A stretch of DNA of 64,000 nucleotides from Halanaerobium salsuginis (lineage in GTDB: Bacteria; Bacillota; Halanaerobiia; Halanaerobiales; Halanaerobiaceae). The translations under genes and the position numbers were made by a program. The stretch lies in NCBI RefSeq assembly GCF_900114545.1, contig NZ_FOTI01000004.1, positions 1 through 64,000 on the forward strand, read 5' to 3'. The stretch's first letter is position 1. The number at the start of each line of letters is the position of its first letter. Shown here piece by piece: positions 51,505-63,788 of this stretch. Under the pieces are notes generated by a model, which was not told the DNA's origin, did no database searches, and saw only the letters and a program-made list of their open reading frames with translations.

Positions 51505-51587
51505 AGTAATAAAAAGGGTTTAGTAGATATTTCAAGAATTATATTATTGGTAGACTAAAAATAAAAGATCTAAGGACGATGTTATTT

Positions 51588-51890
51588 ATGAGTTTAAATT
51601 ATAGAGTGGGTAATTATTATAAAGCTAAAAATTATCTGGAAAGTGGATTCAATTTTCCAGAGGGAGAATATAAATTAAAAATTATAAGAGAAGGGTTCCC
51701 AGAAGATAATGTTAATGATGAAGATGAGCTAGTTATAGCAGAAGAACAGTGGTTGGAAGGTCTAGAAGGTAGTGATCAATATAAAACTGATTTAAGGGGT
51801 AACTGGTACTATTTTGAGTTTCCAATTAATGATGAAGGAATTGAGTATATGTGGGTGCCTGAGTCAGTTGTAGTGGAAGTTTTTGAGTGA
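51588..51890 (+). CDS. Small acidic hypothetical protein
   Basis: A 100-residue, strongly acidic soluble protein (SLNYRVGNYYKAKNYLESGFNFPEGEYKLKIIREGFPEDN), probably beta-rich, with two tryptophan-containing segments (EEQWLEGLEG and GNWYYFEFPI). No domain recognised. ATG 51588 is chosen because AAGGAC ends 10 nt before it; the in-frame ATG at 51579 is only 1 nt from that site. It stands alone between the partition and defence operons. Acidity similar to a DNA mimic can be noted but proves nothing. Confidence 0.5.
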   Translation: MSLNYRVGNYYKAKNYLESGFNFPEGEYKLKIIREGFPEDNVNDEDELVIAEEQWLEGLEGSDQYKTDLRGNWYYFEFPINDEGIEYMWVPESVVVEVFE

Positions 51891-52150
51891 TACTAATAAA
51901 AATATTATGAAAGTAAACTTGAATTATTGGAGAAATTAATTTAGTAGCCTCTGACACTATGGTGTCGCAACAGTATGATATTTTATTATTGAATATATTT
52001 TTTATCTAAAAAGTAAAACTTAAATTTATTGAGAGAACTTTTTGATTATTAGAGTAGGTAATGAAATAAATAGTTAAAAATAACCAATGAAGAAGACGAG
52101 CAATTATAATATTATCTTAGGATGATTTTTAAAGGAGGAGCAAATTTAGA
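51891..52150 (+). other. Intergenic region before the defence operon
   Basis: A small hairpin or operator, GACAC-TATG-GTGTC, lies at 51953-51966. The strong ribosome site AAAGGAGGAG for the DUF499 gene is near 52131. I see no convincing promoter boxes and no small gene. Confidence 0.35.
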
Positions 52151-55100
52151 ATGAGAACACTTAATGAAGCGGTCAGAGTTAGAGAAAGTGTCTTCGATAG
52201 AACAATGAAAGATGAGGTCTTGGATCTTTCAGACTTAAAAAATGGTAACATTGATCCTGAAAGATTTTTTAAAGAAACATTTATCACCGACAACATGGAA
52301 ACAGTTTTTGATACTGCAATGAATAAATTTAGAAACAGATCAGGTAACAGTATTATTAAACTAACCCAGGCTATGGGTGGCGGTAAAACCCACAACATGA
52401 TTGCTTTGGGATTATTAGCTAAATATCCTGATTTAAGGAAAAAGACTCTTGACGGTAAATATAATGATGTAGAAGGTGAGATTAGAACAATATCTGTTAC
52501 AGGTAGAGAATCTGATATGAATTATGGTACCTGGGGAGAAATTGCAAAACAGCTGGGCAAAAAAGAGCAGTTTAGTGAATACTATTCTCCACTTCAGGCG
52601 CCGGGACAAACTGCTTGGATTAACCTCCTGGAAAGTTCTACACCTACTCTTATATTATTAGATGAGCTGCCGCCATATTTAAATAATGCTAAGACTAGAA
52701 CTTATGGGCAGGGTACACTATTAGATATTGAAACAACTGCAATAGCAAATTTATTAAATGCTATAAATAAAAAAGAATTATCTAATGTCTGCTTAGTTAT
52801 ATCTGATCTTGAAGCTACATATGAGGAAGAATCAGAAATAATTCAGGGTATGTTTAAAGAACTCGATGGAGAAATAAATCGTTTTTCTTTAAATCTAGAA
52901 CCTGTATCGAGCAACAGCAATGACCTTTACGATATTTTAAAAACTAGAATGTTTGAAGGCTTACCAGAAGAAGCTGAAATTAACAAAGTAGCTAATGGTT
53001 TTAAGAACAGCGTTAAAGAAGCTGTAGAAATGGGATATACAGATGAAGTTCCGAGTGAAATTGCTTCAGCAGTTAGAGATACATATCCCTTCCACCCTTC
53101 TTTTAAAGATTTAGTCGAAAGATTTAAGGAAAACCAGGGTTTCCAAAAAACTCGTGGTGTTATCAGGTTGACTAAGAAGATGCTTAAAGGTATTTTTAGA
53201 GAGTCAGACAAAGCTGATAATCTATATTTAATTAATCCTTATGATATTGATCTGAACAATTCTGAAATGGCTAATGAAATTAAATCAATTAAACCAGAGT
53301 TTACAAATGCCATAAGCCATGATATTGCCAATAACGGCCACTCTGTTGCAGAGAGGATCGACAAATCTACTGATTCTCAAGATGTTCAGGATGTTTCAAA
53401 ACTGATCTTAATGTCCTCCTTATCAAAAGCTACTGAAGCAATAGTGGGTCTATCAGTGAGTGAGATCTTTACTTATCTTGTCGCTCCAAATAGAGATATC
53501 ACAAAAATCAGAAGCGGTATTGAGGAATTACAGGAAAAAGCCTGGTATTTATATAAACACCATAACAAACTGTTTTTTAGACAGACGAAAAATGTAGTTG
53601 CAGAAATGCAGGATGAAATAAAAAATCTAAGCCGAAGTCAGGCTAAATTATATATTAAAGATTTACTCGAAGAGGAGTTTGAACCTAATGATAATGACTG
53701 CTATCAAAACTTAATGGTCTTCCCTTCAATTGAGGAGATTGAGTTATCTAAAGAAAAAGTTTCTTTAATAATTTCTGAACCTAGTGAGGGTAGTGATGGT
53801 CTAAAAAGTGAATTAAAGCAGTTTTTTGAAGAAGTTGAATATAAAAATAGAGTTATGTTTTTAACTGGTCAAAAAAATGTTATGAATAAGCTTTTAGAAA
53901 CCGCGAAAAAAGTTAGAGCAATAAATAATATAATTGACAGAATGCAGGCCGATAATGTCAGCGACAGAGACAGTGAAATGCAGCAGGCTATGGATTTAAA
54001 AGATAAAACCGGAAACAGGCTTAATTCCAGTTTAAGAGAAACCTTTACTACTTTATATTATCCCAGAAATAATGTATTAAAAAATACTAATTTAATTATG
54101 AAGTTCTCTCAAAACAACTTTAATGCTGAAAAAGAAATTAAAAACACTTTAATCAGTGAAATGAAGTTTACTAAAGATATTGAGCCAAAGAAATTGCGGA
54201 AAAGATTTGATAAAATTATCTTCACTAGAGATAGAATGACCTGGAATGAATTAATTGAAAGAACTGCTACTGAAACAAGGTGGCTGTGGCATAAACCCGA
54301 TGCTCTTGAGGAACTAAAGGAAGATTCTCTGCAGAAAGAAATCTGGTTTAAAGACGGCAACTATATTGATAAAACTCCTCCCAAAAAAGAAACTAATGTT
54401 AATGTTACTAAAATGAGCACTGTAAGTGAAAATGGTATTTCTACACTGCGCATTACTCCAGTTAATGCAGATGAAGTTTATTATGAGATAGGTCAAGAGC
54501 CGACTAAAGCTTCTAAAAAAGTAGAAAACTATAACTCATTTGAAGCAACTGATTTAGTATATTACTTTTTAGCAGTTGATTCAGATGGTGTTAATGAAAC
54601 TGGGGATCCTGTAAGATGGGAGAATGATATAAATCTGCAGTATAAAGAGCTAACAATTAAAGGGAAAGATGCCCTAAAACTGCAGGCAACACCAAGTAAT
54701 TGTGAAATCCGATATACTACAGATGGTGCTTCTCCAAAAGAAAATGGAGGCGTTTATCAAGAACCAATTATTATACCTGAAGATGCAAAATATATTCAGG
54801 CAGTTGCAGTAAATGAAGAACATGATATAACATCTGAGGTGCTGCAGTATAAAGTTTCAAATAAAAAAGTTACAGTTGATAAAGATAAGCCTGTCAAATT
54901 AACAGAAGCTCAAACTCCAAAAGGAACAAAAGCGACATATGAGGAACTTGAATTTTTAAATGAAACCAATGCCAGCTTTAAGCAGGCACAGTTTATTATC
55001 ACCGGCCGAGGTAAAGCTGACTTTTCTTTGACTTTCATGATAGATAAAGTAGAAATAGATGATATGAATATGTTAGAAGATCAACTAAAAAATATTAAAG

Positions 55101-55243
55101 ATAATTTTGTTGGAGAAAAGCCACATGATTTAACTGCTAACATAACTGGTATTAAATTTAAAAGCGGCAGAGATTTTTTAAGATGGCTTGAGAAAAATGA
55201 ATTTAACCTAGAAATGTATAAAAATAGATTTAGTCAACATTAA
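52151..55243 (+). CDS. DUF499-family defence ATPase
   Basis: A 1030-residue large P-loop protein of the DUF499 family, related to BrxC/PglY ATPases of BREX systems. Walker A (AMGGGKTHNM) is near residues 72-81 and Walker B (TLILLDELPPYL) near 163-174, then a long helical body. From about residue 750, two beta-sandwich-like modules appear; the second (EIRYTTDGASPKENGGVYQEP, near 848-870) resembles the C-terminal module of chitobiase-type enzymes. It probably acts as the energy-using hub of the operon. Followed after 12 bp by the DUF3780 gene. Known homologues are associated with anti-phage loci; the molecular function is unproven. Confidence 0.82.
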   Translation: MRTLNEAVRVRESVFDRTMKDEVLDLSDLKNGNIDPERFFKETFITDNMETVFDTAMNKFRNRSGNSIIKLTQAMGGGKTHNMIALGLLAKYPDLRKKTLDGKYNDVEGEIRTISVTGRESDMNYGTWGEIAKQLGKKEQFSEYYSPLQAPGQTAWINLLESSTPTLILLDELPPYLNNAKTRTYGQGTLLDIETTAIANLLNAINKKELSNVCLVISDLEATYEEESEIIQGMFKELDGEINRFSLNLEPVSSNSNDLYDILKTRMFEGLPEEAEINKVANGFKNSVKEAVEMGYTDEVPSEIASAVRDTYPFHPSFKDLVERFKENQGFQKTRGVIRLTKKMLKGIFRESDKADNLYLINPYDIDLNNSEMANEIKSIKPEFTNAISHDIANNGHSVAERIDKSTDSQDVQDVSKLILMSSLSKATEAIVGLSVSEIFTYLVAPNRDITKIRSGIEELQEKAWYLYKHHNKLFFRQTKNVVAEMQDEIKNLSRSQAKLYIKDLLEEEFEPNDNDCYQNLMVFPSIEEIELSKEKVSLIISEPSEGSDGLKSELKQFFEEVEYKNRVMFLTGQKNVMNKLLETAKKVRAINNIIDRMQADNVSDRDSEMQQAMDLKDKTGNRLNSSLRETFTTLYYPRNNVLKNTNLIMKFSQNNFNAEKEIKNTLISEMKFTKDIEPKKLRKRFDKIIFTRDRMTWNELIERTATETRWLWHKPDALEELKEDSLQKEIWFKDGNYIDKTPPKKETNVNVTKMSTVSENGISTLRITPVNADEVYYEIGQEPTKASKKVENYNSFEATDLVYYFLAVDSDGVNETGDPVRWENDINLQYKELTIKGKDALKLQATPSNCEIRYTTDGASPKENGGVYQEPIIIPEDAKYIQAVAVNEEHDITSEVLQYKVSNKKVTVDKDKPVKLTEAQTPKGTKATYEELEFLNETNASFKQAQFIITGRGKADFSLTFMIDKVEIDDMNMLEDQLKNIKDNFVGEKPHDLTANITGIKFKSGRDFLRWLEKNEFNLEMYKNRFSQH

Positions 55244-55255
55244 GGAGATGATCTT

Positions 55256-55792
55256 TTGAGTCAAGTAAAAACCTATGGATTTGGTTTTAATCCGAAAGAA
55301 ACCAATCATCATTTCCTCATAGAAATACCAACTGGAAATGCGAAAATAACAGTATATGAGAGATTTAATTGGGATCAAGATGAGCAGGTTAGTGATTTAA
55401 ATGATAAAGATAAAAAGGTAATTTTAAGTAAAACCAAATGGAATAAAGTTAAAAATGTAATCAAAAAAGAATTTAATAGGCGTTTAAAAGGTGAAGGTCT
55501 TTCAGCAGGAGATTTTGACAGCTATTATGTACCTTTAGAACGTTTATACGGTAAAGAATTAATGCTGCTGCTGTGGGCTATAGAAAATGCTGAGGTTGGA
55601 GTTATTGATTTAGCCATCAAAAACTGGTTAGGTTTATCACCTGAAGAAAGATGGTGGCTTTTTACCATGACTAATGCTTCAACAGGTCACTACAGCGACA
55701 ACCGCGGCTGGAGAATAGCTTTAAGATATGCACTTACAGAAAATCCTGTAGATAATAAATTAGCAGGCAGTTTTGTACAGCGATTATTTTAA
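55256..55792 (+). CDS. DUF3780-family defence-associated protein
   Basis: A 178-residue soluble protein matching the DUF3780 type found between DUF499 and DUF1156 genes in anti-phage loci (TYGFGFNPKETNHHFLIEIP; YVPLERLYGKELMLLLWAIE; SPEERWWLFTMTNASTGH). No catalytic motif is visible; it may be a structural adaptor for the ATPase or methylase. TTG start with AAGGAGATGAT upstream in the 12-bp gap. Confidence 0.78.
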   Translation: MSQVKTYGFGFNPKETNHHFLIEIPTGNAKITVYERFNWDQDEQVSDLNDKDKKVILSKTKWNKVKNVIKKEFNRRLKGEGLSAGDFDSYYVPLERLYGKELMLLLWAIENAEVGVIDLAIKNWLGLSPEERWWLFTMTNASTGHYSDNRGWRIALRYALTENPVDNKLAGSFVQRLF

Positions 55793-55825
55793 GATAAATT
55801 TGAGAAATGTCAGAGGAGGATTATT

Positions 55826-58747
55826 TTGTTAGATTACAATAAATCATTTATTGAAGTACAATTTCCTGTATCAAGAATATCAAAAGAAAGTTACAAAGAA
55901 AGGAAAGCTGGTGCAAGTCAAACACTTACTGGATTAGGAAAATGGTGGGGCAGAAAGCCACTGGTTATGGTTAGGGCAGCCTTATTAGGAACATTAATGC
56001 CTGTTTCTGATGATTACAGTAAAGATAGAAAAATATTCCTTAAAATTATGACTATGGATGAAGAAGGTCTTTGGTTAAGAAAACATAAAAATATTTCTAA
56101 AAAGAAATTATGGCAGTTAACTACTGAAGAAGAAAGAGAAAAATATTTTCGAGAGGGTTCAACTGCAAAAAAGCCTAAATATCCTAAAGGTATGTCTAGG
56201 GAAAATAAGAAATCTATGAAAGAAGAACTTCAGAGAATAGCTTTTGATAGATTGTCTTATGATGATAAATTAAGCTACTGCAGAAGACCGGAAGAGGTAG
56301 AATTGACTAGTGAAAGTGAATGGGGAATTATTAATGATCATTTAGAAACTAATGCTTCTAGTCTGCAGGAATTAATACAAGAATTAGGGAAAAAAAGATT
56401 TGGCCATATTCCTAAAGTTGGTGATTGTTTTTCTGGTGGCGGTTCTATACCTTTTGAAGCAGCTAGAATGGGAGCAGAAGCTTATGGATCTGATTTAAAT
56501 CCAATTGCTGCTTTATTAACATGGGCTTCAGTAAATATAGCAGGAGCAACTAATGAAAAAATTGATGAATTAAAAGAATTTCAACAAAAAGTTTATGAGA
56601 AAGTTGATGAACAAATTAAAGAATGGGGAATTGAACATAATGAAAAAGGACATAGGGCAGATGCCTATTTATATTGTAATGAAGTTGTTTGTCCAGAATG
56701 TGGTCAACATGTTCCATTATTACCATCTTTAAAAATTGATAAGAAAAATAGGGTTGGTGTAAATTTAATTAAAAATGGCAATAAATATAATTTCAAAATT
56801 ATAAATAATTATTCTAAAAAAGAGTTTAATTCTATTAATAACGATGCAACTATAGAAAATTATAAATTGGTATGTCCTAATTGTAATATGAAGACCCCAA
56901 TACCAGCAATTAGAGGTGATAATGATGATGGTGTTAAAAGAGACTATAGATATAATATACCTAATGATTTAAGAAAATGGAATAAAACTGATTTCGTTAA
57001 TAGAGAAGATGACATTTATAATGAAAGAATTTATGCTATTAGATATTTAGATGATAAAGGAAATAGATATTATAGAGAGCCTTTTGAGAAAGATATTAAT
57101 AATGAAAAAAAGGTAAATAACTTATTAAACGAGAAGATTAGCAAATGGCAAGAAAAAGGCATTATTCCAAACCAAAAAATAAAAAAAGGCTGGAATACTA
57201 ATCAATTAACATATGAACGCGGTTGGAGTTATTGGCATCATATATTTAATTCAAGGCAATTATTAATAAGTGGTTTAATTTCTATGAATATAAGAAAACT
57301 ATCTAAAAATAAAAAAGAATTAGCTTTTGGTATTATTAGTTTAAATAAAATTATACATTTTAACTCTAAATTAAGTCAATGGTTATCGGGCTCTAGAAAT
57401 GTTAAACATACGTTTTATAACCAAGCTTTAAATACTTTTTTTAATTATGGAACTCGAGGATTAAAAAAGTTAGAAAATATTTGGTTTTTTGATATTAATA
57501 ATGATTTAATCCAAACTAATATAAATGTGGATTTAGAAGATGCACGCAACATAAAAGTTAATAATGATATTTGGATTACTGATCCACCTTATGCGGATGC
57601 AGTTAATTATCACGAATTATCTGAGTTTTTTCTTGCCTGGGACAAACCATTATTAGAAGAAACTTTTCCTGAATGGTACACTGATTCAAAAAGAGTGTTA
57701 GCTGTAAAAGGGACAGGAAAATCTTTTAATGAGAGTATGATTGAAATATATGAAAATTTAGCTGATAATATGCCTGATAACGGCTATCAAGTTGTAATGT
57801 TTACCCATCAAGATGTAAAAGTTTGGTCAGAACTAACTATGATTTTATGGTCTGCTGGTTTAAAAGTAGCTTCAGCTTGGAACATTTCTACTGAAACAGG
57901 TTCTAGTGGAATTAAACAAGGTAATTATGTTAAAGGAACTGTATTATTAGTTCTTCAAAAACAAACTTCTAATGATTTTGCTTTTCAGGATGAAGTATAT
58001 GATGAAATCCAGATTGAAGTTAGAAATATGATTGATTCAATGAAAGGAATTGATTATAAAGATATTCCTGATTTTACTGATGCTGATTATCTATTAGCAT
58101 CTTATGCAGCAGCTCTTAAGGTATTAACAGGTTATGGAGAAATTGATGGTATAGACATTGATTATTGGCTTTCCGGTGATAGAAACGAAGAAAGTCCAGT
58201 TGAAAAATTAATTAAAAAAGCTCGTGATGTAGCTAATAGCTACCTTATTCCAGAAGAATTTGAAAAAAATCACTGGTTTGAGCTATCTAATGCTGAACGA
58301 TTCTTTATTAGAGGTTTAGAACTTGAGATGAATAATGAACATACTATTGGAGCATATCAGGAGTTGGCAAAGGGATTCGGAGTTAAAGAGTATAAAACAA
58401 TGTTCCATAATTTTGAAGCTAATAATGTCAGACTTAAAACTCCTTCAGAATATAAGATGAGTTATCTTGAGAATGAATTTAATGAAAAAGATTTCAGCGG
58501 CTCATTGTTAAGACACCTGCTGGTTGCTATTTTAGAATCCGCTAAAAATGATTCTACTAACTCAGGCAGAACTTATCTTAAAGGAGTATTTAATCAAAGC
58601 CAAGATTACTGGTATAAAAAACCTTTAATGCGCGAAATATTAACCTTTATTTCTAAAATAGAAATGGTAGATCATATGGAGCACTGGCATGAAGAAGCTA
58701 AATATTCCAAATTATTAAGAGAAGCATTAAAAAATGAAGGTGTATAG
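55826..58747 (+). CDS. DUF1156-family DNA methyltransferase of defence operon
   Basis: A 973-residue putative DNA amino-methyltransferase. The N-terminal DUF1156 region (FPVSRISKESYKERKAGASQ; GKWWGRKPLVMVRAALLG) is followed by cofactor motif I (DCFSGGGSIPFEAARMGAEAYGSDLNP-type, near residue 200), two Cys-pair zinc-ribbon-like parts (VCPECGQ near 286; CPNCNM near 350) and the catalytic motif TDPPYADAV (near residue 586). Motif I preceding DPPY fits N6-adenine or N4-cytosine methylation. Similar to PglXI methylases of BREX type 3; it probably marks host DNA so the system spares it (inference). TTG start, GAGGAGG upstream. Confidence 0.82.
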   Translation: MLDYNKSFIEVQFPVSRISKESYKERKAGASQTLTGLGKWWGRKPLVMVRAALLGTLMPVSDDYSKDRKIFLKIMTMDEEGLWLRKHKNISKKKLWQLTTEEEREKYFREGSTAKKPKYPKGMSRENKKSMKEELQRIAFDRLSYDDKLSYCRRPEEVELTSESEWGIINDHLETNASSLQELIQELGKKRFGHIPKVGDCFSGGGSIPFEAARMGAEAYGSDLNPIAALLTWASVNIAGATNEKIDELKEFQQKVYEKVDEQIKEWGIEHNEKGHRADAYLYCNEVVCPECGQHVPLLPSLKIDKKNRVGVNLIKNGNKYNFKIINNYSKKEFNSINNDATIENYKLVCPNCNMKTPIPAIRGDNDDGVKRDYRYNIPNDLRKWNKTDFVNREDDIYNERIYAIRYLDDKGNRYYREPFEKDINNEKKVNNLLNEKISKWQEKGIIPNQKIKKGWNTNQLTYERGWSYWHHIFNSRQLLISGLISMNIRKLSKNKKELAFGIISLNKIIHFNSKLSQWLSGSRNVKHTFYNQALNTFFNYGTRGLKKLENIWFFDINNDLIQTNINVDLEDARNIKVNNDIWITDPPYADAVNYHELSEFFLAWDKPLLEETFPEWYTDSKRVLAVKGTGKSFNESMIEIYENLADNMPDNGYQVVMFTHQDVKVWSELTMILWSAGLKVASAWNISTETGSSGIKQGNYVKGTVLLVLQKQTSNDFAFQDEVYDEIQIEVRNMIDSMKGIDYKDIPDFTDADYLLASYAAALKVLTGYGEIDGIDIDYWLSGDRNEESPVEKLIKKARDVANSYLIPEEFEKNHWFELSNAERFFIRGLELEMNNEHTIGAYQELAKGFGVKEYKTMFHNFEANNVRLKTPSEYKMSYLENEFNEKDFSGSLLRHLLVAILESAKNDSTNSGRTYLKGVFNQSQDYWYKKPLMREILTFISKIEMVDHMEHWHEEAKYSKLLREALKNEGV

Positions 58748-58757
58748 GTGAATATAT

Positions 58758-61439
58758 ATGATAAAAAGATATTCTTCAAGAAGAGAGTCTATTTCGGACT
58801 CTCTTCTGAATAAAAAATTAAAAAAAGCAAAATCATATGATAGAATTGCAGGATATTTCAGCAGTTCTATATTTGAAATTGCAGGTGAAGCTTTAGATAA
58901 TATTGAAGGAAAGATTAGAATTGTCTGTAATTCTGATCTGCTGCCTGAAGATGTAAAGACTGCTAAAAGAACACAAAAAGCAATCAGAAAAGAATGGTGT
59001 CAAAGTGAACCAGAAAAAATTGATAATAAAAAATTTCGCTTTAAAAAATTATACGAATATTTAGTCTCCGATAAATTAGAGGTCCGGGTGCTTCCTAATA
59101 AAAAATTTGGATTAGTTCACGGTAAAGCTGGAGTAATAACTTTTAAAGATGGTGGACAAACATCATTTTTAGGCAGTGTAAATGAATCTAAAAGCGGCTG
59201 GAATATAAACTATGAGCTAGTCTGGGAAGATGATTCTAAAGAAGCTGTTGAATGGGTGCAGGAAGAATTTGACGCATTATGGAACAGTTCAACAGCTATT
59301 TCCCTACCCGATTTTATTATTAAAGATATTAAAAGAATAGCAAATAGAGAAGTTATTGAGAAAGTTGATGATTTTGAGGAAGAAGATAATGTACCGGCAG
59401 CTGCAAATATTGAATCTCCAATTTATAGAGAAAATTTAGGGCTGTGGGAGCATCAGAAATATTTTATTGAAAAAGTTTATAATGACCACAAAAAATTTGG
59501 GGGAGCTCGATATGTGTTAGCTGATCCTGTTGGTTTAGGTAAAACACTTCAATTAGCTGTCAGTGCTCAGTTAATGGCTCTATATGGAGATAAACCTGTC
59601 TTAATAATAGTGCCTAAAACCTTAATGAAGCAGTGGCAGGATGAATTAAATGACATGCTCAATCTACCTTCAGCAGTCTGGGACGGTACAAACTGGGTTG
59701 ATGAAAACGGCATAAAATATCCCAATAGAGGTAGAGAAGATATAGTTAAATGCCCAAGGAAAATTGGTATTATATCACAGGGCTTAGTTACAGCAAAATC
59801 TGAATCAGTTGATTATCTGCTTTCAAAAAATTATGAGTGTGTAATAGTTGATGAAGCTCACCATGCTAGAAGAAAATCAATTGATCAAAACAACAACTTT
59901 TATTCTTTTCAAAAAACAAATTTATATGAATATTTACTGAGAATAGCTACAAGAACAAAGAGCTTGCTGTTAGCAACAGCTACTCCAATCCAGTTACATC
60001 CAGTAGAACTCTGGGATCTTTTAAATGTATTATCTCAAGGTTCAGATAGAGTTTTAGGGACGAAAAGTTCTTTGTGGAGAAAAAAAGGATCTATCAACCA
60101 GGGATTAGAATTAATTAAAAATAGGGGTAGAAACTTGTCTGCGACTGAAAAATGGCGCTGGATTAAAAATCCTTTTCCTCCTTCTGATGAAGGACCTAAT
60201 TATTCAATATTAAGATCATCAGCAGATATGAATGAAGAAGATGTTGTATATCCAAAACAGTATAATGAACTAAAATATCAAAACAAAGCTGCTGCTGAAT
60301 TTTTAATGAATGATTTTTTTGAAATTCACAATCCATACATACGTCATGTAATAAGGCGGGAGAGAGAGTATTTAGAAAAGAAAATTAATCCTAAAACCGG
60401 AGAACCATATTTAGATACAATTGAAGTGGAGATAATAGATGAGCCACCTTTAAAATTAACAGGGTATATGAAAGATGCTTATGATTATGCAGAAGAATTT
60501 TGCCAGTTAATTTCTAACCGTGTAAAAGGTGGAGGTTTTCTTAAAACACTGCTTTTAAAAAGAATAGGAAGTTCTATTGAAGCAGGTAAAAAAACTGGAT
60601 TGAAGCTCAAAAACAATTGGGGCGAAAATTTGAATGAAATTAGTGAAGAGGAAGATGAGGAAGGAAGCAGCGGAATTAAAGATTTAACAGCAGAAGAGCA
60701 GAAAATGCTTGATAAATATGTTAATGCTCTTTTATCTAATGAAGCTGAAGATCCAAAGTTTGAAAAGTTAGTTAAACTCTTAAAAAGAGAGAATTGGGTT
60801 GATGAAGGAGTTATTATTTTCTCTCAATATTATGATACTGTTGAGTGGATAGCATCTGAATTATCTGAAATATTTACTGATCAAAAAATAGGTATCTATG
60901 CAGGCAGCGGTAAAGCAGGATATTATATTAATAATAAATTTTATAAAAAAACAAAAGATGATATTAAAGACATGGTAATGAGTTATCAGCTGAAAATCTT
61001 ATTAGGAACCGATGCAGCTTCAGAGGGCCTAAATCTTCAAGCTTTAAGAAGGTTAGTTAATATTGATATGCCTTGGAATCCAACAAGATTGGAGCAAAGA
61101 AAAGGACGTATTCAAAGAGGTGGGCAGAGATTTGATAGAATTTATTTATATAATATGAAATATAAGAATTCTGTTGAAGATAGAGTGCATGAACTGCTTT
61201 CTAAAAGACTTAAAAATATTACTGCTATCTTCGGCCAGTTGCCAGATGTACTGGAAGACGCCTGGATTAATGTTGCTTTAGATCAGAAAGAAGAAGCTAA
61301 AAAGATGATTGATAAAGTGCCTGAGAAACATCCTTTTGAGGTTAAATATAACGAGAAGGTTGAAGCCTCTGATTGGGAGAACTGTACTAAAATTTTAAGT
61401 GAAGAATCTAAATTAAAAAAATTGAGAAGTTCATGGTGA
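58758..61439 (+). CDS. SNF2-type helicase with N-terminal phospholipase D-like domain
   Basis: An 893-residue protein. The N-terminal PLD-like domain has the HxK signature in LVHGKAGVI (near residue 120) and GSVNESKSGW. The SNF2/superfamily 2 motor has motif I DPVGLGKT (256-263), DEAH box VDEAHHAR (near 363), TATPIQL (near 407), IFSQYYDT, GTDAASEGLNLQ (near 750) and RKGRIQRGGQ (near 781). It likely moves on DNA and, if its single HxK site is active in a dimer, may cut it. Such PLD-helicases accompany DUF499/DUF1156 genes. It starts 10 bp after the methylase gene and ends the operon. Confidence 0.85.
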   Translation: MIKRYSSRRESISDSLLNKKLKKAKSYDRIAGYFSSSIFEIAGEALDNIEGKIRIVCNSDLLPEDVKTAKRTQKAIRKEWCQSEPEKIDNKKFRFKKLYEYLVSDKLEVRVLPNKKFGLVHGKAGVITFKDGGQTSFLGSVNESKSGWNINYELVWEDDSKEAVEWVQEEFDALWNSSTAISLPDFIIKDIKRIANREVIEKVDDFEEEDNVPAAANIESPIYRENLGLWEHQKYFIEKVYNDHKKFGGARYVLADPVGLGKTLQLAVSAQLMALYGDKPVLIIVPKTLMKQWQDELNDMLNLPSAVWDGTNWVDENGIKYPNRGREDIVKCPRKIGIISQGLVTAKSESVDYLLSKNYECVIVDEAHHARRKSIDQNNNFYSFQKTNLYEYLLRIATRTKSLLLATATPIQLHPVELWDLLNVLSQGSDRVLGTKSSLWRKKGSINQGLELIKNRGRNLSATEKWRWIKNPFPPSDEGPNYSILRSSADMNEEDVVYPKQYNELKYQNKAAAEFLMNDFFEIHNPYIRHVIRREREYLEKKINPKTGEPYLDTIEVEIIDEPPLKLTGYMKDAYDYAEEFCQLISNRVKGGGFLKTLLLKRIGSSIEAGKKTGLKLKNNWGENLNEISEEEDEEGSSGIKDLTAEEQKMLDKYVNALLSNEAEDPKFEKLVKLLKRENWVDEGVIIFSQYYDTVEWIASELSEIFTDQKIGIYAGSGKAGYYINNKFYKKTKDDIKDMVMSYQLKILLGTDAASEGLNLQALRRLVNIDMPWNPTRLEQRKGRIQRGGQRFDRIYLYNMKYKNSVEDRVHELLSKRLKNITAIFGQLPDVLEDAWINVALDQKEEAKKMIDKVPEKHPFEVKYNEKVEASDWENCTKILSEESKLKKLRSSW

Positions 61440-61598
61440 TATGGGTCATTTACCTATTAAAATCAGATAAAGAGACTGAAGATTAACTAGTATTTAGAAA
61501 AATGTCATAACTCTTAAAGTAAAAAATATGACTCAAAATGTTTCTGTTTAAAATCAATATTCACTGCATTAAAATGAGTAAACTAACTGCATTAAAAT

Positions 61599-61623: not shown

Positions 61624-61780
61624 TTGTTGTGACAGCAAAAATTTTAGCACTTTTTACAATCTCTAATTCACTGCATTATTTATATTATGCAGTGAATATA
61701 AATAATTGGAATAAAATGGTAATAAAAATTTATTTAAGAATATATTATAATAACGATAATAGATTATCATTATTGCTTAT

Positions 61781-61810
61781 AGCTCCCTTCGGGGAGCTTT
61801 TCTATTTTAC
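61781..61810 (+). terminator. Terminator-like hairpin with TTCG loop in the integrase leader
   Basis: AGCTCCC and GGGAGCT flank the very stable tetraloop TTCG, followed by TTTTCTATTTT, only 25-30 nt before the integrase ribosome site. It may end upstream transcription or serve as an attenuator of the integrase. Confidence 0.6.
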
Positions 61811-61835
61811 TTTCAAAAAAAAGGAGATGATGTGT

Positions 61836-62711
61836 GTGGAAAAAGTGTTAAAAGATTTTAAGCAGTGGCTAAGGCTGGATGGTAAAAGCAAAAAGACTAT
61901 TGAAAACTACTCATTGGATATAGGCCAATTTCTAAGCTGGATCACAGAAAGAAATATTAATTTAAGTGAAATAAGTAGAGAACATATTTTAAATTACAAA
62001 GTGGAAATAATGAACTCCGGGCTAGCTGTTGTTACTGTGAATAAGAAAATCAATTCTTTAAGGTCGCTCAATGATTTTTTGATTGAGAAAGAAATCAATA
62101 TTAAAAGAGTGATTAAGCCAGGAAAAGATAGGATTAAAATTGCTGGTGGTAGCGAAAATAATGTAGACGTATACAGCAATGAAGAATTGGAGAAAATATT
62201 GTCTGCAGTTGATGAAGAAGAAGTTTCCACCAGGAATAAGTTAATCGTGTACCTTCTTTTGTATACTGGAGTTAGAGTTAGTGAATTAGTAAATATCAAA
62301 ATTTCTGATTTTGAACTATTAACTGGTGAGTTAAAAATAGTTGGCAAAGGAAATAAGTATAGAGAGATTCCAATGAATCAAAAACTAAAAAAAGCGTTAA
62401 AAAAATATATTAATACAGAGAGAAAAGAAAATAAACATGCTGAAGATAGTCCCTATTTACTATTAACAGAAAGAAGCCCTAAAATGCACCGAGATACAGT
62501 AAACTATGTACTACGTAAAATTTGTAAAAACTTTAATTTCAAAGCTAATCCTCATAAATTTAGGCATACTTCTTTTTCAATATTACTTTCGAAGGGTGTT
62601 GATATAACAACTATCTCTCAGTTAGCTGGCCATAATAGTATCGAAACTACTAATAAATATTACTTGAATACAACTAAAGAAGAAAAAGCTGCAGCAGTCT
62701 CACTGTTGTAA
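61836..62711 (+). CDS. Tyrosine recombinase/integrase (XerC/D-like)
   Basis: A 291-residue site-specific recombinase. N-terminal SAM-like core-binding domain (DFKQWLRLDGKSKKTIENYSLDI); catalytic domain with arginine in TGVRVSELVNI, lysine in GKGNKYREIP, HKFRH and GHNSIETTNKYY with the tyrosine nucleophile. All key residues are present, so it should be active. Probably the integrase of the surrounding element or a resolver of its dimers. GTG 61836 is chosen because AAGGAG ends 9 nt before it; the two ATGs at 61827 and 61830 are too close, and the longer frame runs through hairpins. Confidence 0.87.
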   Translation: MEKVLKDFKQWLRLDGKSKKTIENYSLDIGQFLSWITERNINLSEISREHILNYKVEIMNSGLAVVTVNKKINSLRSLNDFLIEKEINIKRVIKPGKDRIKIAGGSENNVDVYSNEELEKILSAVDEEEVSTRNKLIVYLLLYTGVRVSELVNIKISDFELLTGELKIVGKGNKYREIPMNQKLKKALKKYINTERKENKHAEDSPYLLLTERSPKMHRDTVNYVLRKICKNFNFKANPHKFRHTSFSILLSKGVDITTISQLAGHNSIETTNKYYLNTTKEEKAAAVSLL

Positions 62712-62723
62712 TAATTTTAATCC

Positions 62724-62757
62724 GAGGTACTTCCTTAATTGGGGGGTACCTCTTTTT
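62724..62757 (+). terminator. Rho-independent terminator after the integrase
   Basis: GAGGTAC (62724-62730) and GTACCTC (62746-62752), followed by five Ts. Confidence 0.85.
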
Positions 62758-62787
62758 GATTTCAAAAAAATTAGGAGGTAGAGAAAA

Positions 62788-63240
62788 ATGAGAATTATAA
62801 AAAATATTTCTGATCTAAGGACATTGAAAAAAGATGAAGCACTGGAAAAAGAATATTTAGATTTAATAAAAAGATACTTCAATCAGCTTCATAAAGCGTT
62901 GGGAGATGGCTGTATCGTTGAGGAATTTAGCCTTAAAAATCACGGTTATATTGTGGTTCTTGAAGCTGAGGACAATCTTTCTGGAGAATTAATGGGAAAT
63001 GTAGGATTGAATCCGGAAGGGGGAATTTATGTTAGTTGGCCAGAATTCGTAGAAGAAATAAATTTAGACTCAATTGTAGTATATAAGATAAATATTTTAT
63101 ATACTAATGATTTTATGATGAGCTTTTACATCAAAAAAGGAATTAATAAAAAGCTTGAAAAGTGGCTTGATGATAAGGTAGATATTGATAAGTATGATGG
63201 AGAAATAGATATAAATAATGATGAAGAAGTACCATTTTAG
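62788..63240 (+). CDS. Hypothetical protein of mobile island
   Basis: A 150-residue acidic, soluble protein with an alpha-helical start (EALEKEYLDLIKRYFNQLHKALGDG), a central beta-rich part and an Asp/Glu-rich tail (DIDINNDEEVPF). No domain recognised. Good ribosome site TTAGGAGG. The acidic C-terminal tail ending in PF recalls single-stranded-DNA-binding proteins' tails (DDDIPF type), but no OB-fold is evident. In an operon-like row with the next genes. Confidence 0.55.
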   Translation: MRIIKNISDLRTLKKDEALEKEYLDLIKRYFNQLHKALGDGCIVEEFSLKNHGYIVVLEAEDNLSGELMGNVGLNPEGGIYVSWPEFVEEINLDSIVVYKINILYTNDFMMSFYIKKGINKKLEKWLDDKVDIDKYDGEIDINNDEEVPF

Positions 63241-63310
63241 GAGGTGGAATTTTGGAAATTATAATTGGCATAATAATAAAATTGCTAAATCAATAATAAT
63301 TGATGCTAAT

Positions 63311-63339
63311 AAGCTGGCTTGCCAGTAAAGCTGGCTTTT
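63311..63339 (+). terminator. Weak terminator-like hairpin
   Basis: GCCAG (63321-63325) and CTGGC (63331-63335), followed by TTTT; the AAGCTGGCTT motif just before it offers an alternative pairing. Lies between two small island genes. Confidence 0.45.
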
Positions 63340-63365
63340 GTGGAATAAAAAAGGAGGTAAACATT

Positions 63366-63788
63366 ATGGTCAAAAACTACAAGAATAAGATTTTGAGAAC
63401 TTACAGAAAAATAAACAGTACAGAAAGGGCAGTCCATCTTTTCTGCTCTGTAATTCACTTTGATAGAAGAGATAGTAAAATGCTAGCAGCTGTAGCTATA
63501 GATCCAGATAAAAAACTAACTACATTAAAAATTATAGATCAAAGTTTTGATGCTAAGAATGCTGCCCCGGGAGAAATATTCAGCAAAATCAATATAGATC
63601 CAGGCAGCAGGTTGATCTTTGCTCAAAACAAGTTTGATTTACCGGAACCATCACTTGCAGAAATTCGCTTTGCTAAAAATTTAAAAGAAGCAGCTGAATT
63701 AATGGGTATACAATTTATAGACTATTTAAGTATAGCAGAATATGATAATTATTTAAGCTTTAAGGATAGTAAATACATTAAATTTTGA
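63366..63788 (+). CDS. RadC-like JAB-domain protein lacking the metal motif
   Basis: A 140-residue protein whose residues 25-135 follow the RadC/JAB fold: strand VHLFCSVIHFDRRDSKMLAAVA, the LIFAQNKFDLPEPSLAEI segment (82-100) and the helical end ELMGIQFIDYLSIAEYDNYLSFKD. In canonical RadC proteins the middle motif is HNHPSGDPTPS-type and binds zinc; here it reads QNKFDLPEPS, so both histidines are gone and the protein should not bind metal there. RadC-like genes are common next to integrases on mobile elements; function unclear. ATG 63366 has AAGGAGG upstream. Confidence 0.6.
   Translation: MVKNYKNKILRTYRKINSTERAVHLFCSVIHFDRRDSKMLAAVAIDPDKKLTTLKIIDQSFDAKNAAPGEIFSKINIDPGSRLIFAQNKFDLPEPSLAEIRFAKNLKEAAELMGIQFIDYLSIAEYDNYLSFKDSKYIKF

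Follow-up and report, generated by a model that had tools for sequence, protein, structure and literature searches.

Introduction

Type-2 BREX-Related (BR) systems are known from a sequence-based survey that reported them in 1120 taxa, DUF3780 being present in 98% (Rakesh and Krishnan, NAR 2026; PMC12839542), and operons with DUF499 genes had been noted earlier (PMC7641849). In the portions of the former paper drawn on here, the definition of the class includes a C-terminal RRM-like domain of DUF499 and three HTH-like domains at the C-terminus of the methyltransferase, with the target-recognition domain (TRD) of the methyltransferase situated between motif I and motif IV. FnIII-like domains precede the DUF499 C-terminal domain in 53% of Type-2 BR taxa. 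The same portions describe TRD divergence between subtypes, not as an exchange of alleles between close BR copies (PMC12839542). Members of the sister class, Type-1 BR or Hma (PADLOC HmaABC), likewise consist of a DUF499 protein (HmaC), a DUF1156-like methyltransferase (HmaB) and a SNF2 helicase (HmaA), but are without DUF3780, and instead of a PLD domain they have TUDOR at the N-terminus and a PD-(D/E)XK nuclease at the C-terminus (PMC12839542). In canonical BREX, PglX is reported to recognize the motif for methylation and defense alike (PMC11341690).

Results

Organization of the operon

The window analyzed is a 64,000-nt stretch of Halanaerobium salsuginis DNA (positions 1 to 64,000 of the 124-kb contig NZ_FOTI01000004.1). 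Four plus-strand genes, encoding a DUF499 ATPase, a DUF3780 protein, a DUF1156 methyltransferase and a PLD-SNF2 helicase, fill positions 52151-61439 of the window. The features referred to below are as follows:

52151-55243, + strand: DUF499 ATPase gene (1030 aa)
55256-55792, + strand: DUF3780 gene (178 aa; TTG start)
55826-58747, + strand: DUF1156 N6-adenine-type DNA methyltransferase gene (973 aa; TTG start; motif I at residues 198-212, DPPY at 586-589)
56543-57637, + strand: methyltransferase TRD (residues ~240-604, from motif I to DPPY/motif IV; allelic between close copies by sequence comparison)
58758-61439, + strand: PLD-SNF2 helicase gene (893 aa; predicted nuclease-translocase effector)
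58758-59357, + strand: N-terminal PLD nuclease domain (residues 1-200; PLDc_2 at 19-175)
52125-61440, + strand: cassette common to four Halanaerobium species (~89-90% DNA identity; flanks differ)

The intergenic gaps are, 5′ to 3′, 12, 33 and 10 bp, and reading frames, strand and spacing all agree with the tight four-gene operon of the original prediction. Ribosome-binding sites were found before 52151 (AGGAGG), 55256 (AAGGAG) and 55826 (AGAGGAGG), both TTG starts being well served in this respect, and a weaker AGGTG lies upstream of the PLD-helicase start at 58758. A scan for promoters and terminators was not informative: promoter-like sites numbered 59, against an expectation of 46.

The catalytic motifs, which had also been predicted to be intact, were invariant or nearly so across 66-72 aligned relatives. 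The GGGKT and DE motifs of the DUF499 ATPase were each kept in 72 of 72 sequences. All 66 methyltransferases had G-x-G and D-P-x-Y, with the exact DPPY in 63 and a G in the DPPY position in two. Of the PLD-helicases, 68/68 retained H-G-K and 68/68 G-S-x-N, and the helicase motif positions that were checked were invariant or nearly so. The PLD site has the form H-x-K...GS-x-N...E; the classical Asp of "HKD" is missing throughout the family. The methyltransferase of Thermomicrobium roseum (L007:8926-11865) has DPGY in place of DPPY at motif IV.

Relationship to described defense systems

Pfam profiles identified DUF499 (E 2e-29) and Fn3_assoc in the first protein, DUF3780 (E 5e-48) in the second, DUF1156 (E 2e-21) in the third, and PLDc_2 (19-175), SNF2 (253-428) and Helicase_C (667-789) in the fourth. 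As the original prediction had proposed checking, the proteins were compared with defense-system models, and each was found to have a dedicated model in both PADLOC and NCBIfam: PADLOC PDLC02189-02193 (DUF499, DUF3780, DUF1156_MTase, PLD_Helicase) matched the four proteins with E-values of 1e-44 to 1e-265, and NCBIfam NF042961-NF042964, all named "anti-phage", matched them as well. The methyltransferase (1311 bits, NF042963) and the PLD-helicase (1270 bits, NF042964) scored above their curated NCBIfam cut-offs of 1000 and 1100, respectively. The DUF499 protein (806 bits; 683 bits in PADLOC) and the DUF3780 protein (156 bits) fell below theirs of 1200 and 200, and thus the Halanaerobium version has diverged from the core of these models.

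Judged by its sequence, the operon is a Type-2 BR system and not a new kind (PMC12839542). Its first gene encodes a BrxC-like DUF499 AAA+ ATPase with an FnIII-like region; a standalone DUF3780 gene stands between the DUF499 and methyltransferase genes; the N6-methyltransferase has an N-terminal DUF1156 and a TRD insert between motifs I and IV; the SNF2 helicase carries an N-terminal PLD/HKD nuclease where TUDOR would stand; and PglZ is absent. No defining difference from the class was seen in the Halanaerobium operon. This four-gene kind is already catalogued, and the locus itself is therefore no discovery. The Hma models of PADLOC matched the window proteins more weakly than the dedicated models did, and Pfam detected no PD-(D/E)XK domain in the window operon.

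The original prediction had called the operon "BREX/DISARM-like", without PglZ. The first half of the label held, being borne out by the defense models, the BrxC-like structure described below and the published BR class. Like BREX Types 1 and 3, the operon has a BrxC-like ATPase and an N6-methyltransferase as likely specificity factor, and its SNF2 helicase is shared with Type 3. Unlike BREX, it resides in a genome without PglZ and BrxB, and the predicted nuclease is a PLD domain. PF08665 (PglZ) had no match anywhere in this 99.9%-complete genome, nor did PF08747 (BrxB), and because both are missing by Pfam search the system is not canonical BREX. A Pfam scan of the operon and neighboring proteins also revealed no BrxA or BrxL. 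The DISARM half of the label was not sustained: the SNF2 helicase domain is related to DrmD, but it is of a generic kind, PADLOC Drm models matched through the helicase protein only, the operon has no DrmA- or DrmB-type gene, and Pfam found no DUF1998 in the operon or neighboring proteins. That the system is modification-based is well supported by the defense models and the published Type-2 BR classification. The further statement that its mechanism is little described applies to experiment, our literature search having found none on a DUF3780-type BR system, but not to bioinformatics, in which a description exists (PMC12839542).

The AlphaFold (AF2) model of the DUF499 protein (pLDDT 87) had the BrxC of Acinetobacter BREX as its best match among solved structures (Foldseek E 4e-7; VIA Z 17.3 over 406 residues, 4.1 Å), and the next matches were ORC/Cdc6 ATPases with Z of 12.5 and lower. 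This predicted BrxC-like structure supports a tie between this very protein and BREX. One FnIII-like domain was recognized by profile (Fn3_assoc, residues 842-898; CHB_HEX_C, 836-890; Pfam), and residues 826-902 of the model matched 6q63 with Z 11.0.

Conservation and genomic context

The block shared by four Halanaerobium species (~9.3 kb) starts 26 bp upstream of the DUF499 gene and ends with the stop codon of the helicase gene, and the surroundings differ. Since the flanks are not shared, the four genes constitute a conserved unit. The loci nearest to the window operon are those of Halanaerobium polyolivorans and H. saccharolyticum. In GTDB genomes, all four genes were present at 67 of 80 loci, in one order in 67/67, the other loci being mostly contig fragments; every gap was shorter than 150 nt in 33 of the 67. 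The same single order was found in all 20 virus-collection loci that have the four genes. Identical order in both sets indicates that the arrangement is not due to chance. Plasmids of Desulfosarcina, Acinetobacter, Thermomicrobium, Deinococcus, Pseudomonas and Halomonas also keep it, those of Desulfosarcina and Deinococcus with inserted genes.

Upstream of the window operon lies a flagellar cluster (FlgM, FlgN, FlgK, flagellins, FliD), followed by ParA and two small unknown ORFs. Downstream (61629-63788 in the window; L123:1629-18077) are two tyrosine recombinases, RadC-like proteins, a primase, an A-family DNA polymerase and Transposase_31. From this gene content the operon probably sits at the edge of an integrative mobile element.

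Several side observations were made on these loci. A 103-aa ORF just upstream of the operon (51579-51890) matches many Halanaerobium genomes at 73-83% DNA identity, with at most three copies per genome. In Desulfosarcina, a gene with Schlafen AlbA_2 and HATPase domains (L005:11931-13388) is inserted between the methyltransferase and the PLD-helicase, and gaps of similar size are present at this position in many loci. In Epulonipiscium viviparus (L057:882-10230) the order is methyltransferase-DUF3780-methyltransferase-DUF499, and the PLD-helicase is absent from the stretch examined. A homologous PLD-helicase occurs in 49 of 5426 E. coli genomes. The E. coli operon exists in two versions, in 17 and 32 genomes (L186-L188), and in strain UMNK88 it belongs to an integrase-bearing island at tRNA-Phe and has an extra restriction endonuclease gene right after the PLD-helicase.

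Allelic variation of the methyltransferase TRD

In alpha-class adenine methyltransferases, the TRD is located between motif I and DPPY. The methyltransferase of the window has the corresponding layout, with DUF1156 at residues 12-74, motif I at 198-212, a variable insert at 240-604 and DPPY at 586-589; a profile search of this protein gave no solved relative. When the four Halanaerobium copies were compared, methyltransferase residues ~310-555 stood out in each of the six pairs, with a DNA identity of 54-71% (once 75%; 54-71% at ~310-500). Identity was ~73-93% over the methyltransferase N-terminus and mostly 90-99% over its C-terminus and over the DUF499, DUF3780 and helicase genes. The C-terminal ~130 residues of DUF499, its proposed sensor region, varied modestly between close Halanaerobium copies, and PLD-helicases of copies with different TRDs were 98-99% identical end to end, with no variable patch.

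Substitution rates followed the same course. Between Halanaerobium pairs, dN was 0.28-0.41 and dS 0.9-1.3 in segment 240-604, and ~0.002-0.047 and ~0.14-0.72, respectively, in DUF499, DUF3780 and PLD. Outside the TRD, purifying selection acts on all four genes. The raised dS together with the raised dN in the TRD points more to imported alleles than to point-by-point selection, and diversifying selection without exchange could be the source of part of the pattern. Divergence was also raised in the N-terminal part of the methyltransferase (dS 0.5-1.05), and hence the exchanged tract exceeds the TRD alone.

We extended the comparison to 32 close pairs, meaning pairs of loci whose PLD-helicases share 85% identity or more. 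In 30 of these pairs, which come from many lineages and are not all independent, the TRD was the least conserved segment; in the remaining two the TRD allele was unchanged (97-100%). Some TRDs resemble those of distant systems as much as those of close ones. The window TRD is 56% identical to that of Pseudobacteroides (PLD 54%, DUF499 43%) vs. 55% to that of H. polyolivorans (PLD 98%), and the TRD of locus L105 is 62% identical to that of L108 (PLD 44%) vs. 58% to that of its sister L107 (PLD 96%).

A variable TRD in an otherwise constant cassette implies that target specificity resides in the methyltransferase alone, which on the simplest reading would supply it to the whole system, with the ATPase, DUF3780 and PLD-helicase being motif-blind. 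BREX and Type I restriction have this same arrangement. We think it likely, on these comparisons, that recombination moves the TRD as a specificity cassette between BR systems that are otherwise constant or even distant, and that each swap would reprogram both host marking and PLD-helicase attack while the other three proteins stay motif-blind. On present sequence comparisons, the allelic TRD in an otherwise constant cassette is the point added by our analysis. With their differences concentrated in a single domain, the four closely related natural copies amount to a ready-made experiment on BR specificity, and whether the methyltransferase directs BR restriction can be tested with existing strains through the allelic TRD. 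If it does, a common mechanism, and not homology alone, would link BR systems with BREX and Type I restriction.

Proposed mode of action

The operon is real, and it is probably complete and functional. Its conserved cassette boundaries and the purifying selection on the four genes make it reasonable to regard the system as complete and the PLD-helicase as its effector. We hold with considerable confidence that this is a complete Type-2 BR defense operon at the edge of a probable mobile element, working by modification-based recognition and PLD-SNF2 attack. The individual activities, namely methylation, complex formation, recognition of unmethylated sites, PLD cleavage and phage defense, we infer from what is known of the families. 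In this model, the DUF1156 methyltransferase would read a short motif through the TRD between motifs I and IV and methylate an adenine within it, by which host DNA would be marked. The BrxC-like DUF499 ATPase and DUF3780 would join this methyltransferase in a complex that detects unmethylated motifs on incoming phage DNA and recruits or licenses the PLD-SNF2 helicase, which would translocate on the phage DNA and cut it.

A modification-dependent (Type IV-like) or replication-blocking system, in which DNA with foreign modifications is attacked and the methyltransferase marks self in the manner of an antitoxin, is improbable. Such a role has been proposed for archaeal DUF499 operons partnered with EVE modified-base readers (PMC7641849), and fusions of DUF3780 to modified-base readers occur in some cases (PMC12839542). 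However, the Pfam scan of the window operon detected neither EVE nor ASCH nor RAMA, and the diversification of the TRD fits sequence-specific self-marking better than attack on modified bases. Still less probable is a Type II-like restriction-modification system, in which the PLD-helicase would find its target independently and the methyltransferase would only protect. The gene set does contain a methyltransferase and a nuclease, and PLD-family nucleases with their own specificity exist (BfiI and SauUSI-like enzymes), but an independent nuclease would need to co-vary with TRDs that differ strongly, whereas the PLD-helicases stay 98-99% identical, and two further conserved proteins would be left without a role. 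Least likely of all is that the operon is decayed or selfish mobile-element cargo kept by addiction or hitch-hiking, as the adjoining integrase, ParA, RadC, primase and transposase-like genes might suggest, given its four intact reading frames, conserved catalytic residues, strong purifying selection and cassette ends that, in each of four species, match the limits of the four-gene set.

DUF3780 and DUF7680

Within the favored model of methylation-guided PLD-SNF2 attack, our guess, in line with PMC12839542, is that DUF3780 may serve as an adaptor or reader. Its AF2 model was confident (pLDDT 89) and had no convincing match in the PDB (best Foldseek E 0.95, best VIA Z 3.3), which is no proof of a new fold; the best E-value in a profile search of the PDB was 0.18. 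Kinship with DruA of Druantia was considered after a Pfam match to the window protein (E 0.006) and was rejected, only 3 of 89 relatives matching, and these weakly.

A second protein family, DUF7680, which was named in no paper found by our literature search, takes the DUF3780 slot in sister operons (L174-L179, L136-L148). A reading of DUF7680 as a diverged DUF3780 was not upheld: the local profile score of 17.2 was equaled or exceeded by 13 of 150 column shuffles and the global score of 7.9 by 12 of 60 rotations, so the two share a position without demonstrable homology. In each of the first 13 loci, DUF7680 has a DUF499 gene on one side and a DUF1156 methyltransferase gene on the other, and the six extended DUF7680 loci also carry a SNF2 helicase of ~1240-1300 aa.
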